Source of the DNA: Bacteroidales bacterium
GTDB lineage: Bacteria; Bacteroidota; Bacteroidia; Bacteroidales; F082
Assembly: GCA_017428285.1 (NCBI GenBank)
Contig: JAFRRE010000192.1
Location: 1 to 7,851, forward strand
Direction of reading: 5' to 3'
DNA length: 7,851 nt
Positions 1-7,097 of this stretch are shown here, one piece after another. Made by a program: the position numbers and the translations under genes. The notes under the pieces are model-generated. The model was not told the DNA's origin, did not search any database, and saw nothing but the letters and a program-made list of their open reading frames with translations. Each line of letters opens with the position of its first letter. The stretch's first letter is position 1.

Positions 1-134
1 CCATATGCGACGGAATACTGCTGATAGACATAGTTGCCTATTAAGATGACGAAGGCAATGGAAATGATGAGACCCACTGCCTCAATGACGGTGTAGAGTT
101 TGTTTCGGGAGAGGAATTTCAGGTAGCTGCTCAT
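1..134 (-). CDS. ABC transporter permease, MacB/FtsX type (N-terminal part only)
   Basis: The first 44 codons of an inner-membrane ABC permease are visible; the gene continues beyond the left edge. The product begins MSSYLKFLSRNKLYTVIEAV and then runs into a hydrophobic helix at about residues 20-38. This is the N-terminal anchor that precedes the first periplasmic MacB_PCD domain in the family. It is almost the same as the start of the complete permease at 3147-5519 (MSSYIKFLSRNKLYSIIEAI), so the two are paralogues, and that match fixes the ATG at 132-134. A sigma-54 promoter and tandem palindromes lie upstream, so transcription is probably activator-dependent. Family members work with a separate ATPase in export or extrusion from the membrane, not import; the substrate cannot be told. 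No ATPase gene is visible. Confidence 0.88.
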   Translation of the reverse strand, partial: MSSYLKFLSRNKLYTVIEAVGLIISIAFVILIGNYVYQQYSVAY

Positions 135-182: not shown

Positions 183-198
183 TGCATAATCCGTGCCA
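183..198 (-). promoter_or_regulatory. Sigma-54 (-24/-12) promoter of the left permease
   Basis: The minus strand reads TGGCACGGATTATGCA, matching TGGCACG-N4-TTGCW at all fixed positions except one (A for the first T of TTGC). The GG and GC doublets have the canonical spacing. Transcription would start near 172, giving a leader of about 38 nt. Tandem palindromes lie about 63 bp upstream of the -24 element, where an enhancer-binding activator would be expected. A near-identical promoter precedes the complete permease. Confidence 0.82.
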
Positions 199-216
199 AA
201 ACCATAAAACAATATG

Positions 217-229
217 AATCAACAAAATA
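217..229. promoter_or_regulatory. IHF-like DNA-bending site, copy A (tentative)
   Basis: AATCAA followed by four bases and ATA resembles the IHF consensus WATCAA-N4-TTR with one mismatch in the second half. It lies between the palindromes and the sigma-54 promoter, where bending sites usually sit in NtrC-type promoters, and it is kept in copy B (5603-5615). The motif is weak, and Bacteroidetes HU/IHF proteins may not recognise it. Confidence 0.3.
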
Positions 230-251
230 CGATTTTGCCCTTTTGTAAAAG

Positions 252-290
252 TGTAAAGTTTCTTTACAGTGGGTGTAAAGAAACTTTACA
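252..290. promoter_or_regulatory. Tandem palindromic activator sites (upstream activating sequence), copy A
   Basis: Two perfect 17-bp palindromes of the form TGTAAAG-N3-CTTTACA lie at 252-268 (centre TTT) and 274-290 (centre AAA). Their centres are 22 bp apart, about two helical turns, which suits cooperative binding of dimers on one DNA face. Because the centres are complementary, the two sites also form one larger inverted repeat with a 5-base loop. Their position upstream of a -24/-12 promoter suggests an NtrC-family enhancer-binding protein. The regulator is not in the window. Confidence 0.75.
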
Positions 291-1187: not shown

Positions 1188-1691
1188 TTACCCTCTCTGC
1201 AACACTTCTGTAATCCTCTTGCTGCAAATGGCCTGCACCACACCCGAAACAATCAGCGAAAGGAGCAGGAAAGCCGTGAAGAACGACAACAGGGCCACGG
1301 TCAGCACAAGGGAAACGGGCACATGATAGGCAAAGCCTTGCAGCCATTGCAGCGAGAAATAGACCGACAATGCCGTTGCCGCAATGACGGGCAGGATGTA
1401 CATCCGCAACCTGGTTTTCAGGTAATGCCCTTGCACCTCTCTGGTGCTGGCACCAAACACCTTGCGCACCGCCATATTGAGCGACTCCTGATGCAGATGA
1501 TAGGAAACGACACCAAAGAAGCCAAACAAGGCCAATAGCATCGCCGCAAGGAAATACAACAACGACAAATGCCCGACCTGCCGTTCCTCGCGGTAAAGTT
1601 CCTTCTCGCCCAAAAACGAATAGGAAAAGACATCCGTATAATTAAACGGACGCACCACTTCTTGAATGTAGGCCAAGGTCAGGCTATTTCC
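1188..1691 (-). pseudogene. 3' remnant of an ABC transporter permease (last FtsX domain)
   Basis: An open frame of 167 codons equal to the last fifth of a MacB/FtsX permease. It starts inside the end of the periplasmic domain (LAYIQEVVRPF, FSYSFLGEKELYREE) and holds three membrane helices, the conserved AVRKVFGAS loop that couples to the ATPase, and a native-looking C-terminus ending in TAA at 1188. About 620 N-terminal residues are missing compared with the 790-residue paralogue. The frame is closed upstream by TAG at 1692-1694, and the next bases belong to the AT-rich AAA cassette. There is no ATG at the start (only TTG at 1676) and no promoter, so it is almost surely dead. The sequence differs clearly from the C-termini of the permeases at 3147 and 7318, so it comes from another paralogue. 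Confidence 0.85.
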
Positions 1692-1707
1692 CTATTTTTA
1701 TGAATAA

Positions 1708-1787
1708 GTTGGAAAAAAGCATAAAAACATCCTAATTAAGGTTGGAAAAAAGCAAAATAGTTGTATTTTTGCGGTTGGAAAAAAGCA
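1708..1787. repeat. Three 33-bp-phased direct repeats on the AAA-gene promoter
   Basis: GTTGGAAAAAAGCA occurs without mismatch at 1708-1721, 1741-1754 and 1774-1787, with a period of exactly 33 bp (about three helical turns). Repeat 2 supplies the predicted -33 element. Repeat 3 covers the predicted transcription start and ends 7 bp before the ATG. Repeat 1 lies one period upstream. This suggests cooperative binding along one DNA face, either by a repressor (possibly the ATPase itself) or as a recognition site for cassette movement. Confidence 0.85.
1741..1771 (+). promoter_or_regulatory. Promoter of the AAA_14 ATPase gene
   Basis: TATTTTTG at 1764-1771 fits the Bacteroidetes -7 box TAnnTTTG. 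GTTG at 1741-1744, one base off TTTG, lies exactly 19 bp upstream. Predicted start is near 1776, with a leader of about 19 nt. The -33 box is part of direct repeat 2, so anything bound to the repeats would affect RNA polymerase. Confidence 0.65.
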
Positions 1788-1794
1788 TTAAAAA

Positions 1795-3132
1795 ATGATT
1801 AATAGAAAGATTTACAGTTCTTTAAAAGATTTCTTTTTGAATGACAAAAAATCGCTCCTTGTTACGGGTGCACGACAAGTAGGAAAAACATTTGCCATAC
1901 GCAAGGTGGGAGAAGAAACATTCAAGCATTTTGTGGAATTCAATTTCATCAAAAATCCGAAACTCAAAACCATCTTTGCCAATCCGCTCGACACAAACGA
2001 TATCCTGTTGCGCATTTCTGCGTTGACCGCCACAAAATTGGAATCTGGCAGCACCTTGATTTTCTTCGATGAAGTGCAGGAATGTCCAGAAATTGTCACG
2101 GCGATTAAGTTTCTTGTCGAGGAAGGAAGTTATCGTTATGTCATGAGCGGCTCTCTTTTAGGTGTCGAATTGAAAGACTTGCGAAGCGTCCCTGTCGGTT
2201 ACATGGCTGAAAAAGAAATGTTTCCACTCGATTTCGAGGAGTTCGCATTGGCTTTAGGCATGAGCGATGAGGTGATGACGCATCTTCATGAATGTTACGA
2301 TAAGAGAATTCCCATCGATTCTGTCGTTCATGAGAAGATGATGGAATTGCTTCGTCTATACCTTGTAATCGGAGGAATGCCAGCTGTTGTGGAGAAGTAT
2401 CTGGATACCAACAACATGCAGGAAGTCCGACACGAGCAGGAGAACATCCTGAAACTATACAAAAAGGACATTGCCAAATATGCCGACAACAAGCTATTCA
2501 TCAAAGAGATTTTTGAAAGGATTCCGTCGGAACTCAATGCCCAAAACAAGAGATTTATACTAAAATCGCTGAACGATAGAGCAAAATTCGAAAAATACGA
2601 GAACAGCTTCCTTTGGCTGACCGATGCAGGGGTGGCCTTACCCACATATAATGTCGACAAACCTTGTGTTCCGTTGAAACTCAATGAACAACGCAACTTG
2701 TTCAAGTTGTTTCTTAATGATGTTGGCCTGCTGTCCTGCATGTACTCATCTGGTTTTCAACTCAATATCATGATTGGCGAAATCAATGCAAACTTCGGTG
2801 CCGTTTTTGAGAATTTTGCCGCACAAGAACTTCGTTCGCATGGTTACGACCTTTACTATTTCAACAGCAAAAAGCAGGGAGAACTCGATTTCGTCATTGA
2901 ACACGACGGTCAAGCTCTCCCGATAGAAATCAAGTCAGGGAAGGATTACAAACGGCATAACGCTCTTTGCAATGTGATGAAAAACGAAGAATATGCGATA
3001 AAAGAGGCTTTTATATATACGACAAAGAACATTGAAATCCTTGACCGAAACATATATCTTCCGGTGTATCTGTTGATGTATCTCCGTGAACGAGAACTAC
3101 CGAACAAAAAGATAGTGTTCAGTCCGATGTAG
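1795..3132 (+). CDS. AAA_14 / DUF4143 family ATPase
   Basis: A 445-residue protein with an N-terminal AAA_14 ATPase domain. Walker A is GARQVGKT (25-32), Walker B is LIFFDE (88-93), and VMSGSLLG (116-123) sits at the sensor position. The middle part (about 180-320) is helical. The C-terminal DUF4143 region (about 325-430) has a PD-(D/E)xK nuclease-like pattern: E339, D365 in GELDFVIE and E378-I-K380 in PIEIKSG. The family is very common and variable in Bacteroidetes and archaea and is usually regarded as accessory; its cellular role is not established, and nuclease activity here is inference. Length is typical. The gene is clearly more AT-rich than the flanking permeases, runs against them, carries its own repeat-bearing promoter, and stops only 14 bp from the end of the convergent permease gene, which suggests acquisition as a cassette. 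ATG 1795 is the only sensible start. Confidence 0.9.
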   Translation: MINRKIYSSLKDFFLNDKKSLLVTGARQVGKTFAIRKVGEETFKHFVEFNFIKNPKLKTIFANPLDTNDILLRISALTATKLESGSTLIFFDEVQECPEIVTAIKFLVEEGSYRYVMSGSLLGVELKDLRSVPVGYMAEKEMFPLDFEEFALALGMSDEVMTHLHECYDKRIPIDSVVHEKMMELLRLYLVIGGMPAVVEKYLDTNNMQEVRHEQENILKLYKKDIAKYADNKLFIKEIFERIPSELNAQNKRFILKSLNDRAKFEKYENSFLWLTDAGVALPTYNVDKPCVPLKLNEQRNLFKLFLNDVGLLSCMYSSGFQLNIMIGEINANFGAVFENFAAQELRSHGYDLYYFNSKKQGELDFVIEHDGQALPIEIKSGKDYKRHNALCNVMKNEEYAIKEAFIYTTKNIEILDRNIYLPVYLLMYLRERELPNKKIVFSPM

Positions 3133-3146
3133 TTTTTCTGGCATTG

Positions 3147-5519
3147 TTATTCCTTCTTCAACGCCATCACTGGGTTCACCCTCGCCACGGAGACGATCTG
3201 CCAAAGGACCGAGCCGATGGCGATGACGAACGACAGCACTACCGTCACCACGAAGATCCAGGGATGCAGGTCGATGCGATAGACAAAGTCCTCCAGATAG
3301 CGCCCGCAGACCCAAACCGCCATGGGGATGGCGATAACATTAGCGATGAGAATCATGATGACGTATTCCTTCAGGTTGCGGCGAATCTCGCTTTGCATCG
3401 TGCCGCCAAACACCTTGCGGACGGCGATGGTCTTCTCGCGCTCGGAGGCGAAATGCGTGCTCATGGCCACCAGTCCCAACAGCGAGAGCATTACCGCCAC
3501 CGCCATAAACAAGTCCACAAGGCGCATTTTGTTTTTGGTGCTCTGCAAACTTTGCAGCAAAAGGTCATCTATAAAGCCCTCTCTGAAAGGTTCCCAATAG
3601 GTTTCTTGCATTTTGATATGTTTGTCATACACCGCATCGATCGCCTTGCGAGCTTCGGCGTGGTCGCCCACAATATCCAGTACAGGATTGAAACTTACCC
3701 ATTTGAACATCGGCTCGTCTCCCACAATCTGCACGGCACCGAACTTCTCGTCAACCACAGAGGCAGCACTGTTGATGGCGAAATCGCCCACCACGCCACA
3801 CAGGTCGTAGCCGACATTATGCTTGTACCAAACACCCAGCGAGTCGGGGTCGAACTTGCTCATCGGCATCCCCAGTTGGCTCTCCAAAAGCCCCCGCGTC
3901 AATAACCACTTGCCTTCCTCCAATTGGCTGTACATCACCTTGGTATCGAAGTCGTAAAGGTCGAAAGCCGCCGTGTCGCACATCAGGTACCCAACGGAAA
4001 TAAAATTGTCGGGATCGTTGAGGCGCACAAAGTTAGAGCCCATCATTGCACTGCCAGGATAGCCGTAGGAATGGCCCATCCGCTTCACACAAGGCAATGA
4101 AAGCAAATCATTCTCGAATGCCTCATTGCCCGTAAGGACGGATTCAAGATAAAACAGGTTTTCAGTGCGGCATCCCACCGGCCTCCGCTCCATGTGGCGC
4201 ATTTGCGCTTCCATCGTGATCACCAAGGCAATCAGAACGATGGCAATGACGTTTTGCAGGACGATGAACACCTTCGAGAGCACCATCTTGTTGCGGAAGC
4301 GGAACATGCCCTTCACCACATCGATGGGCTGGGCGCGCAACACCACCACCGCAGGCGTGATGCCCGCCAACAAAGCCACAACCACCACCATCAGTAGGTA
4401 GGAAACCAAATAGAAAGGCGAGAGCGAAATCCTAACCCCAACACTTCCGCCCAACAGCCGATTGACCATAGGGCAAAGCGCCTCGGCCAAAAGGATGCCC
4501 AGCACCATACACACCGAAGTGAACGCCAGCGACTCCCAGAGGTATTTCCCGATGATTTCACCCTTCATCGCGCCAAGCAGCCGCCTCGAAGCCATCTCCT
4601 TGGCCCGTTTGCTCGTCAAGGCAACGTTGAGGTTGATGTAGTTGAATATGGCAGAAATCAGCAGCAGCAAGCCAATGGCCAACAGGCTGTGCATCATCGT
4701 TTTGTCGCCTTTCTTCAGGTTGGTTTGGGCATCGGTGTAAAACAACTCGTCCAAGCGAACCAACATAGTGTTTTCTGCAATTTCAAACGGGGGCTCCATC
4801 CCTAAAATCTCAGAGTAAAAGGTCACAATCGCCGCCGACATTTTTTCAAGAAGTGTCGCACGGTCAGTGTTGGGAAGCACTTTCACAAAGACATTCACCG
4901 TGGTAAACACATTGGCCGGTCGGGATGGGCTGTTGAGGCCACCATAGAACACCACGCCATCGCTGACATCCACATTAACAATCACGTCGGGCGTTTCGTA
5001 GAAAAGCGAACTGCCGAAGTCGGAAATCACGCCAGCCACGGTGTAATCGCGCTTAAACAAATGGATGTTGCGCCCAACCACTTCGCCTGTCTCGGAAAGC
5101 AATTGCGCCATACGCTCCGAAACGAATGCCGCCGAAACTTCGTTGATTTGGTCTGGCTGGCCTACGGCGAACTCGACGGGAAAGATGTCGAAGAAATCGC
5201 GGTCGCAGCCCAGCACATACACCGCTCGGGATTGGTCGTCGGCCTTCATATCGGTATGCATCATCTGGAACTCTGTGATCGATTCAATTTCTGGTATGCT
5301 CTCGCCGATGCTGCCTTTCAATCCATACTCGAATTTAATCAGGTTCTTCAACCCCACAGCGTATATCTCCTTTCGGTGCGGGTTTTCACGTGTCACAGCG
5401 ATTTGCTGCGCCACATAGCAGAAGATGATGACCACGAAGGCGAGGCTCACCGTCAGGCCAATGGCCTCGATGATGCTGTAGAGTTTGTTTCGGGAGAGGA
5501 ATTTGATGTAACTGCTCAT
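3147..5519 (-). CDS. ABC transporter permease, MacB/FtsX type, full length
   Basis: A 790-residue inner-membrane permease with eight predicted helices: about 20-40, 279-299, 330-350, 371-395, 412-435, 668-688, 718-740 and 753-776. Two periplasmic MacB_PCD-like domains (about 41-275 and 440-660) precede two FtsX domains, the duplicated layout usual in Bacteroidetes. The cytoplasmic loops carry the ATPase-contact motifs ASRRLLGAM (310-318) and AVRKVFGGT (699-707); the C-terminus ends VNPVMALKKE. It needs a separate ATPase, not seen here; family members act in extrusion or mechanotransmission, and the substrate is unknown. The start matches the left-hand paralogue. A sigma-54 promoter with tandem palindromes precedes it. 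The next upstream gene on the strand is hipA, but the promoter between them suggests separate control. No frameshift is visible. Confidence 0.93.
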   Translation of the reverse strand: MSSYIKFLSRNKLYSIIEAIGLTVSLAFVVIIFCYVAQQIAVTRENPHRKEIYAVGLKNLIKFEYGLKGSIGESIPEIESITEFQMMHTDMKADDQSRAVYVLGCDRDFFDIFPVEFAVGQPDQINEVSAAFVSERMAQLLSETGEVVGRNIHLFKRDYTVAGVISDFGSSLFYETPDVIVNVDVSDGVVFYGGLNSPSRPANVFTTVNVFVKVLPNTDRATLLEKMSAAIVTFYSEILGMEPPFEIAENTMLVRLDELFYTDAQTNLKKGDKTMMHSLLAIGLLLLISAIFNYINLNVALTSKRAKEMASRRLLGAMKGEIIGKYLWESLAFTSVCMVLGILLAEALCPMVNRLLGGSVGVRISLSPFYLVSYLLMVVVVALLAGITPAVVVLRAQPIDVVKGMFRFRNKMVLSKVFIVLQNVIAIVLIALVITMEAQMRHMERRPVGCRTENLFYLESVLTGNEAFENDLLSLPCVKRMGHSYGYPGSAMMGSNFVRLNDPDNFISVGYLMCDTAAFDLYDFDTKVMYSQLEEGKWLLTRGLLESQLGMPMSKFDPDSLGVWYKHNVGYDLCGVVGDFAINSAASVVDEKFGAVQIVGDEPMFKWVSFNPVLDIVGDHAEARKAIDAVYDKHIKMQETYWEPFREGFIDDLLLQSLQSTKNKMRLVDLFMAVAVMLSLLGLVAMSTHFASEREKTIAVRKVFGGTMQSEIRRNLKEYVIMILIANVIAIPMAVWVCGRYLEDFVYRIDLHPWIFVVTVVLSFVIAIGSVLWQIVSVARVNPVMALKKE

Positions 5520-5522
5520 TAC

Positions 5523-5558
5523 CGTTTAATTGTTGATTGTTTAACTGTTTAATTGTTG
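5523..5558. repeat. Direct repeat in the permease leader, copy B
   Basis: CGTTTAATTGTTG at 5523-5535 and CTGTTTAATTGTTG at 5545-5558 repeat the leader arrangement of the left permease. They lie between the predicted transcription start (about 5558) and the ATG at 5517-5519. Confidence 0.55.
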
Positions 5559-5636: not shown

Positions 5637-5674
5637 TGTAAAGATTCTTTACAGTGGTGTAAAGAAACTTTACA
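5637..5674. promoter_or_regulatory. Tandem palindromic activator sites, copy B
   Basis: TGTAAAG-N3-CTTTACA occurs at 5637-5653 (centre ATT) and 5658-5674 (centre AAA), with centres 21 bp apart. The two form an inverted repeat with 17-bp arms (one mismatch) and a 4-base loop. It starts 10 bp after the hipA stop. Besides being a likely activator site for the permease promoter, the RNA form could fold into a strong hairpin that ends the hipBA transcript; that second role is inference. Confidence 0.75.
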
Positions 5675-5683
5675 GTCCTTATT

Positions 5684-6778
5684 TCACGCCATCACTGTGT
5701 TCCCCTTAACCATAGAAGCGATTCCTTCAAACACTTCTTCGGCCTCATCTTTCCGAAGCCCGAACTTTACGGCAAGCTGAACAGCGTCCATTTTCCCTGG
5801 ATCTTTGTAGTTGCCATTCACGGAAAGGCTGTGGAATCCACCCAAGCCTTCGCAGGGCAGCACATCGTAGGCTGGAGCCAACTGCCAAACATCATTGCGA
5901 CGAATGAAAGCAAAGTTCTTTACATGGTCGTCGCAATTGCCGATGATGAGGTTGAACGCCATCAGGCGGAACACCTTCCACAGCTCCTTGACGGAATGCG
6001 TGAGTTGGCTGCAAGCCCAGAACAGATGACCGTAATCGGCGGTGGGCAGGTGATAGTCGAGGTTCATCAGGGCGGAGAGACTGATAACGTGCAGTTTGCC
6101 GCCATCTTCGGTACGGTCGAAGCGCTTTGAGCCGAAGTATTTTCCTTCGAAAAGTCGGGTCTCGGCCATCTCAATGCCACATTCGCGAGCCAACAGTGAG
6201 GTCTCATATTCGATTTTGCCTACATTGGGCGGGTCGGTGCGGTCGCGGAACTTCACTAACCACTCGGCACCGTCGTGATGCACAAACACTTTGGGTCTCG
6301 TGCCGCCCGAGGAGCCGCCGCGTCGCCAAGCCTTGTCGAGGTCGTCGGAATAGTCGGTATTCAATACCCGCTGCGACTCTTCCGTCATGTGGTCGAGGTC
6401 GATGATGACCTGCTCGTCAACGGTGCTTAGGTCGGGATGGTATTCCAAGGCACCTCGCCCACGGCTGCCAACAAACATCAGTTGCTCCAACAAATCCAAC
6501 GAAGCCAACGACTTGCCTTGCGACCTCAGATAACGGTCGAGCACCAATGCACTCCAGCCGTCGGGCAGGCTGTCGTCGAACACACCGAAGTTGCCGTCAA
6601 AAGGCTTCGCATCGGCGGTGAACAACCTCGATTCCAACGGCAAGTGAAACGGCGAGATGGAAAAGCCATTCCGAATCCAGTCCGCATCGTATTCGAACAA
6701 AGCGCGACCGTCTCTATCCAAAGCTATCCGCCCGACTTTACGGGAGCCTAGCGTTACTTCAACTATCTTTTCACTCAT
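5684..6778 (-). CDS. hipA: HipA-family serine/threonine kinase toxin
   Basis: A 364-residue kinase toxin. The N-terminal part (about 1-110, with FGVFDDSLPDGW at 64-75) is the Couple_hipA/N-subdomain, and the HipA_C kinase domain follows. Visible motifs are the glycine/serine-rich loop GGSSGGTRPK (154-163), ATP-binding LVKF with K176, the catalytic loop GNCDDHVKNF (280-289; D283 and N288 correspond to the catalytic aspartate and metal-binding asparagine) and LAPAYDVL (300-307; D305 is the metal-binding aspartate). E. coli HipA phosphorylates glutamyl-tRNA synthetase and causes growth arrest; the target here is not shown. The protein is shorter than E. coli HipA (440) but all core motifs are present, so it looks active. 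The start MSEKIVEV is chosen because it overlaps the hipB stop by 8 bp, as expected in a coupled hipBA operon; a longer frame to 6865 only repeats hipB sequence in another frame. Confidence 0.92.
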   Translation of the reverse strand: MSEKIVEVTLGSRKVGRIALDRDGRALFEYDADWIRNGFSISPFHLPLESRLFTADAKPFDGNFGVFDDSLPDGWSALVLDRYLRSQGKSLASLDLLEQLMFVGSRGRGALEYHPDLSTVDEQVIIDLDHMTEESQRVLNTDYSDDLDKAWRRGGSSGGTRPKVFVHHDGAEWLVKFRDRTDPPNVGKIEYETSLLARECGIEMAETRLFEGKYFGSKRFDRTEDGGKLHVISLSALMNLDYHLPTADYGHLFWACSQLTHSVKELWKVFRLMAFNLIIGNCDDHVKNFAFIRRNDVWQLAPAYDVLPCEGLGGFHSLSVNGNYKDPGKMDAVQLAVKFGLRKDEAEEVFEGIASMVKGNTVMA

Positions 6779-7097
6779 TGCGTTTCCCTCGCTTTCTGTT
6801 TGTTGTGGTGGCATTAAGTGCCTCATCCAAAGTGGCGTATTTGCGCGACTCAAACAATCGGTCAAAGTCGTTCAAGGCATCCAAAGCGTAAGCGATATGG
6901 AGCAAGCCATCCAAAGAAATCTTGCCTGTCCGCTCAAAGCGGCGGTAGGTCGCCAAAGGCAATCCCGAGCGCACAGAAAGACCTTCCTGCGTTAGGTTCA
7001 TCTCCAAACGACGCGCTTTCACCCGTTCCGCCAAAGCCATGGCCTTACCTTCTGGTGAGACAATATCAAATGACAATATATTGTTATTTATATCCAT
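6771..7097 (-). CDS. hipB: HipB-like antitoxin, helix-turn-helix repressor
   Basis: A 108-residue XRE/HTH_3 protein directly upstream of hipA, overlapping it by 8 bp. The helix-turn-helix spans about residues 22-75, with LTQEGLSVRSGLPLATYRRF (35-54) as the central helices. The C-terminal tail is basic (RKRGKRNE). The expected role is to bind and neutralise HipA and repress the operon. The 20-residue N-terminal extension (MDINNNILSFDIVSPEGKAM) resembles those I recall in Bacteroidetes HipB-like proteins, which supports the ATG at 7095-7097. The promoter at 7132-7162 gives that ATG a leader of about 28 nt. A shorter start at M20 (7040) is possible. Confidence 0.87.
   Translation of the reverse strand: MDINNNILSFDIVSPEGKAMALAERVKARRLEMNLTQEGLSVRSGLPLATYRRFERTGKISLDGLLHIAYALDALNDFDRLFESRKYATLDEALNATTTNRKRGKRNE
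7073..7084. promoter_or_regulatory. Palindrome inside the hipB 5' end (possible operator)
   Basis: ACAATATATTGT is a perfect 12-bp palindrome within codons 5-9 of hipB, about 42 bp downstream of the predicted transcription start. It could be a HipB site in the early transcribed region, but the sequence is AT-rich and chance is possible. Confidence 0.3.

Follow-up and report, generated by a model that had tools for sequence, protein, structure and literature searches.

The window, i.e. the whole stretch of 7,851 nucleotides analysed here, contains two blocks of about 107 bp in which a pair of inverted repeats (hereafter dyads) is combined with a sigma-54-type promoter motif, and the question is what these blocks control and which protein reads them. 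We interpret each block as an enhancer-dependent sigma-54 control region, at which an NtrC-family regulator (enhancer-binding protein, EBP) would switch on a MacB/FtsX permease, and assign this reading a probability of about 0.85. The dyad pair itself is real and occurs far beyond chance; the sites, their fixed geometry, the downstream genes, the linkage to a regulator, the recurrence with homologous regulators and the correlation between regulator helix and site were all computed. Positions of the features are listed in Table 1.

Table 1. Control regions and FtsX-type permease genes in the window.
Feature	Position	Strand	Remarks
Distal dyad copy 1, TGTAAAG-N3-CTTTACA	274..290	-	exact match; proposed activator dimer site
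Proximal dyad copy 1	252..268	-	exact match; centre 22 bp from distal dyad centre
Spacer copy 1, 53 bp, dyads to -24 element	199..251	-	proposed loop region
Sigma-54-type promoter copy 1, TGGCACGGATTATGC, -24 GG / -12 GC	198-184	-	motif match
Distal dyad copy 2	5658..5674	-	exact match
Proximal dyad copy 2	5637..5653	-	exact match; centres 21 bp apart
Sigma-54-type promoter copy 2, TGGCACGGATTATGC	5584-5570	-	motif match
MacB/FtsX-like permease, 5' end, runs off window, behind copy 1	1..134	-	translation MSSYLKFLSRNKLYTVIEAVGL...
MacB/FtsX permease, 790 aa, behind copy 2	3147..5519 (ATG 5519)	-	Pfam FtsX 6.7e-23, MacB_PCD 1e-11
FtsX permease fragment, C-terminal 162 aa	1188..1676	-	Pfam FtsX

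Both palindromes of copy 1 are perfect and spaced as a preliminary description of this DNA had claimed, and the promoter motif which it gave as TGGCACG-N4-ATGC with -24/-12 spacing is confirmed in both copies (GG-N10-GC in a TGGCA..TGC context, present twice in the window as TGGCACGGATTATGC). Its distance of about 63 bp fits the centre of the nearer dyad, whereas the gap from dyad edge to TGG is 53 bp in copy 1 and 52 bp in copy 2. With up to three mismatches the dyad matches four times in the window (0.27 expected), a number that none of 200 shuffles reaches. The TGGCACGGATTATGC motif with up to two mismatches is not rare in the window (four matches, 8.0 expected); the promoter is therefore called on the strength of its position and conservation. 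The dyads are repeated and helically phased upstream of the -24 element, as in an NtrC-type UAS. On the downstream side of the pairs the sigma-54-like score reaches 14.5 and 14.0 of 14.5, against 8.75 and 9.25 on the other side; no comparable promoter exists there for either pair, and control is thus one-directional, away from the PIN and HipA genes. Transcription would start near 172 for copy 1, judging from the usual distance to the -12 element, and is predicted near 5558 for copy 2. Both control regions precede permease genes, as described earlier (ATGs at 134 and 5519). The two copies are paralogous and align almost throughout, including the 5' leader; they are therefore not independent evidence, and only other genomes can test the control regions.

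The protein that starts at 134 begins with MSSYLKFLSRNKLY...; its product is too short for a domain call and was named by its likeness to other MSSYxKFLSRNKLY permeases. The C-terminal FtsX fragment is 92-95% identical to residues 626-787 of the permeases of L058 and L077. This fragment (1188-1690) abuts the AAA_14 region and lacks the 5' part, the promoter and the dyad pair, and at its place L058 and L077 possess a whole permease gene with its own dyad pair and promoter; it may reflect either a deletion or an assembly fault. An AAA_14/DUF4143 ATPase gene occupies 1795-3132, and an AAA_14-like AAA gene is found within about 1.6 kb on the upstream side of 33 of the 105 exact pairs described below (a count taken without a control run). 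A mobile AAA_14 cassette carrying the site was considered and rejected: in L013, L057, L058, L062 and L150 a distance of 20-22 bp separates the 1680-3163 block from the pair, which fits a conserved locus order. A phage origin was likewise discarded, with no megablast match among 50,697 phage records. A small ORF and a PIN-domain gene, toxin-antitoxin-like, are located between copy 1 and the FtsX fragment (388-1058), and HipA-like and HTH (HipB-like) genes directly upstream of copy 2 (5684-7097), an arrangement that L090 shares by sequence likeness. The window contains no regulator gene, the placement of which is taken from relatives. Among the genomes with a linked EBP, G006 matches the window over long parts at 94-97% DNA identity.

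At a -24/-12 promoter, sigma-54 polymerase stays idle until it is reached, through a DNA loop, by an upstream-bound AAA+ activator. In the mechanism proposed here, two dimers of a phosphorylated NtrC-family regulator (receiver, Sigma54_activat and Fis-type HTH domains) would bind the two dyads, which share one face of the helix at a distance of about two turns, a placement that would fit two dimers seeding an AAA+ ring. The ring would loop over the 52-53-bp spacer and remodel RNA polymerase at TGGCACGGATTATGC, presumed to be sigma-54-dependent, so that transcription of the permease would require activity of the partner histidine kinase; the receiver domain suggests that the regulator is phosphorylated by the neighbouring kinase. 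As the module is repeated along the chromosomal locus, a MacA(HlyD)-MacB/FtsX-ABC ATPase-TolC exporter and some secreted or outer-membrane proteins would be switched on together. Exporter and surface-protein targets point to an envelope-stress, toxic-compound or antimicrobial cue as the possible signal.

When 84,980 species genomes were searched for two exact dyads separated by 3-6 bp, 89 stretches were found, where about 1e-5 exact pairs would be expected in uniform random sequence of the same size. All but two of these stretches (87) are labelled Bacteroidota or belong to the MAGs 'P3' and 'F082' (Cacconaster counted as Bacteroidales after a check); the exceptions are one Desulfuromonadaceae MAG (L001) and one Lachnospiraceae-labelled contig (L011). 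Including the window there are 105 exact pairs, many of them duplicates or orthologues and hence not 105 independent events, with gaps between dyads of 5 bp (53 pairs), 4 bp (51) and 3 bp (1). The pairs are not scattered at random in related genomes, in line with the preliminary description: in 88 of 105 cases the 17-mer that scores best as a sigma-54-like motif, among those within 150 bp, begins at a distance of 51-54 bp. In the remainder the motif lies at 100 bp (8 pairs, all of the rteC-like class), elsewhere (6) or is weak (3), and some copies have a weak -12 element (TGGCACGGATTATGA, TGGCACGAAGATTGT). A sigma-54 motif scoring at least 11 of 14.5 occurs at 46-58 bp from 91 of the 105 exact pairs, but in only 59 of 2100 Markov-shuffled flanks. 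Among 22 whole genomes searched with up to three mismatches and a dyad gap fixed at 4 or 5, matches are present in all 15 genomes with the exact pair and in none of the seven family members without it; the reversed control pattern has no match in any of the 22.

Transporter genes come first downstream in 61 of the 105 pairs, as had been anticipated: a MacB/FtsX permease in 45, and a TolC-type (11), ABC ATPase (4) or HlyD (1) gene, together 16. Secreted or outer-membrane proteins follow in 27 (a DUF2807 secreted protein in 17, a CarboxypepD_reg protein in 10), rteC-like genes in 9 and an EBP gene in one (L001), while for 7 pairs the first gene has no class (4 unclassified, 3 at contig ends). 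Matches to a small set of references were considered within 900 bp, on the flank with the better sigma-54 score, and the nearest of them was used as first gene, its family being named by Pfam on one example each; the side was thus set by score, and the weak-motif sites (second pair of L002, L069, L074) may be wrong-sided. In G001 four exact pairs occur within 16 kb on one contig. A regulon of FtsX permeases, as initially proposed, therefore agrees with 45 of the first genes and is too narrow: TolC, HlyD, ABC ATPase, DUF2807 and carboxypeptidase-regulatory-domain genes belong to it as well, nine exact pairs precede rteC-like genes with another spacing, and a target set of permeases only is ruled out by these gene classes. 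In the Desulfuromonadaceae MAG (L001, 1692-1728), the exact pair is situated about 170 bp before an NtrC-type EBP gene with an SRPTL helix, possibly a case of self-regulation.

In G001 and G018 the permeases are accompanied by genes for a response-regulator EBP and a putative histidine kinase (EBP domains Response_reg, Sigma54_activat and HTH_8 checked in the G001 protein, the kinase domain in G018). The nearby NtrC-type regulator foreseen in the preliminary description is found, as a PF00158 EBP on the pair-bearing contig, in 12 of the 15 site-bearing genomes (not in G017, G019 and G022); in G005 and G009 the pair on the EBP contig has one mismatch. Distances from EBP to nearest pair range from 0.9 to 12.7 kb in 16 genomes, some coordinates being approximate. 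Ten linked EBPs form one clade on the tree, together with that of G022 and apart from the other EBPs of these genomes. The clade is characterised by the helix ISRPTLY and the loop GAFTDA; other sampled EBPs have SERTLY or DRKTLY helices. GAFTDA replaces GAFTGA and is counted among the loop variants held to keep activity in the available text of PMC4641369. Off the tree, the EBP of G016 has the same helix and loop, and that of G009 (L113, G009:C32, 1901-3210) is split into two frames, by mutation or MAG error perhaps, with helix and loop visible in the pieces. RpoN (PF04552) is present in 14 of 15 related genomes, G018 showing none, and G125 has the pair with no EBP match; incompleteness of the MAGs may account for both absences. 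When 119 members of the family were sampled, 15 genomes encoded an EBP with 86% or more identity to that of G001, and 12 of these contained the exact pair, versus 1 of the 104 others; the cut was chosen once the data had been seen, and the association is confounded by kinship. From the sequence evidence we infer the identity of the activator: the NtrC-type response regulator is likely to act on the pair sites.

At E<=1e-110, homologues of this EBP occur in at least 62 of 119 Bacteroidales genomes, in many cases with MacA/MacB/TolC-type genes beside them. Around 60 EBPs, out of 88 matches listed (883,193 bp), TGT-N11-ACA pairs with gaps of 3-6 bp were detected 23 times (including one overlapping match and one inside an ORF), against 0.4 in shuffles. 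Such a loose pair is present at 18 of 28 loci with an R[PQ]T helix (RPT or RQT), the weak L160 (poor dyad) and L175 (no GG element) included, versus 1 of 32 with other helices (Fisher 4e-7). In-ORF pairs were left out of these per-locus counts and of the half-site tally, and the overlapping L150 pair was dropped from the tally and from the helix reading of the tree. A second sample, taken afterwards from the family search and treated by the same rule, has the pair at 13 of 20 loci (8 of 12 RPT, 5 of 8 RQT; 0.1 expected); all 13 pairs, four of them identical, are intergenic with a GG element 51-65 bp away. By the strict pattern 10 of 28 R[PQ]T loci of the first sample lack a pair, as do 7 of 20 loci of the second, among them L225, whose EBP is the closest of its sample to that of G001 (83% identity). 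L151 possesses a strong sigma-54-like motif (8386) before a TolC-like gene, near an SRPT EBP and with no pair by the strict pattern.

The loose pairs imply that the system extends beyond the exact site and that the dyad sequence changes along with the regulator. At base 4, half-sites have A in 54 of 56 cases for SRPT regulators including L160 (52 of 52 without it), C in 22 of 28 for SRQT, and A in 34 of 48 for TRQT including L241 (31 of 44 without it). On the EBP tree SRPT is a single clade, so within the family this helix appears to be one single change; in the sister SRQT group (L237-L239) the two members with a pair, L237 and L238, have TGTC. As these sequences are related by descent and duplication, the p-values overstate independence. 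Two further SRPT EBPs lie beside an exact TGTAAAG pair, namely a Prevotella-type RteB on another branch of the tree and the off-tree EBP of L001. The match between helix and site, together with this recurrence of SRPT, is the best evidence and suggests that the EBP itself reads the dyads.

The sigma-54 promoters could be genuine and the dyads bound by a different protein, either another EBP or a palindrome-binding repressor. Additional PF00158 matches exist in all 15 genomes, and many regulators make use of such dyads. We nevertheless consider such a binder unlikely, since the occurrence of the sites follows that of the EBP clade whose genes adjoin them, the other sampled EBPs have different helices (SERTLY, DRKTLY), base 4 of the site changes with the helix, and the two further SRPT EBPs adjoin the same exact pair.

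Much less probable is an origin of the near-identical regions by gene duplication, gene conversion or a mobile cassette, reflecting descent and no function. The window copies do align almost throughout, 5' leader included, and AAA_14/DUF4143, PIN and HipA/HTH genes lie among the duplicated permease genes. Descent of this sort is opposed by the recurrence of pair and promoter before unrelated genes (TolC, ABC ATPase, HlyD, DUF2807, OMP, rteC), as well as by degenerate pairs, mostly with the same spacing, at EBP loci across the order. Scarcely credible, and rejected on dyad position, is a role of the palindromes as RNA hairpins, in which they would terminate or attenuate transcription of the right-hand genes. 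Judged by its sequence, a 7-bp inverted repeat with a loop of three bases can form a structure in RNA, and the hipA stop codon (5684) immediately precedes copy 2, but the dyads are upstream of the presumed promoter at a fixed distance in 88 of 105 pairs, hence outside its transcript, and a hairpin would need no fixed distance.

As an enhancer-dependent control region, the block has partial precedents. Sigma-54 was tied to FtsX-type permeases in 2025 (PMC12316311): in the available text of that study sigma-54 promoters are predicted before COG0577/FtsX permeases, as here, COG0577 is enriched in Bacteroidia among others, and the link is called first evidence; unlike here, that text gives no enhancer site or dedicated activator. 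Because this link in Bacteroidia is already in print, the 'undescribed' regulon of the preliminary description is reduced to the enhancer and its regulator, which alone seem undescribed. No description of either was found in the open-access literature, among the matches listed, judging from titles and the opening lines of abstracts. In its logic, the closest precedent, as far as its available text goes, is the PrsK/PrsR PEP-CTERM regulon (Haft 2006, PMC1569441), predicted by comparative genomics, with a histidine kinase and an NtrC-type EBP as here; a motif, in some copies repeated, is separated there from a sigma-54 motif by a spacer averaging 62.8 nt. Its targets are PEP-CTERM genes, in contrast to the exporters and surface proteins found here, and TIGR02915 (PrsR) is the top NCBIfam match of the EBP with 402.8 bits, below the cut-off of 502.6. 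In Flavobacterium psychrophilum, also Bacteroidota, sigma-54 promoters (SM4) with -24/-12 elements lie at mapped 5' ends, one of them mutation-tested; the targets named in the available text are chaperones, gliding and exported proteins, and no enhancer site is given there (PMC9723704). The accessible parts of PMC3162934, PMC3333781 and PMC9850573 give no site of the TGTAAAG-N3-CTTTACA type, and those of the iron stimulon paper PMC10434189 have gene lists only and nothing on the site. Sigma-54 activators of Bacteroidota are common in gut genomes and, in our impression from the literature, little studied; one of them can now be given a probable operator and a kinase partner, together with a promoter geometry and the genes it would control (a tripartite exporter and surface proteins), and its recognition helix gives a way to predict sites.

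Another known system close to this one is found in conjugative transposons of Bacteroides and Prevotella, such as CTnDOT, where RteA/RteB control rteC (PMC1976400). The nine exact pairs with an rteC-like first gene (Pfam RteC checked on L060 only) differ from the exporter pairs in that the promoter-like motif is about 100 bp away (8 pairs; 87 bp in L004). The opposite flank of the pair contains, in eight of the nine, the end of an EBP gene with an SRPTLY helix (its frame in L065 interrupted by masked bases), and the loop of this Prevotella-type RteB is GAFTGA, versus GAFTDA in the linked exporter clade. The surrounding gene set is presumably that of a mobile element. In the window both pairs precede permeases and none of the eight proteins scanned is an RteC. 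The F082 assembly (G004) has exporter-type as well as rteC-type sites, although a contig binned into it could be foreign. Searched in 198 genomes, RteB homologues were matched in 15, and the 17 loci examined (43-49% identity) contain no TGTAAAG pair, one (L221) having a TGTAGA pair. An rteC-like gene was seen at just two of them, L208 and L209; most of the 17 EBPs are therefore not RteB proper, for which these two loci provide the whole test, and both possess an IGRTTLY helix and no TGTAAAG pair.

A readable code of the Fis-type helix (SRPT to TGTAAA, SRQT to TGTC), with one operator common to the exporter activator and RteB, is conceivable from these motifs, and we regard it as doubtful. Equally tentative is the extension that a shared operator might let the exporter two-component activator and the RteB of conjugative elements fire each other's promoters. 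If true, rteC and the transfer of the element might be set off by a signal from the envelope, and host exporters might be activated by an element that enters the cell. CTnDOT RteA/RteB raise host gene expression according to the available text of PMC1976400, and an operator in common with RteB would suggest one route for this activation. The Lachnospiraceae-labelled L011 contains an rteB-rteC-like region with an exact pair, like the Prevotella contigs, and may be a mis-binned contig or a transferred element. In L221 a TGTAGA-N5-TCTACA pair (4243-4280) is located just past an EBP gene with a DRKTLY helix, followed about 77 bp on by TTGGCATCCACTTTGAA, and looks like a sister system with another site.
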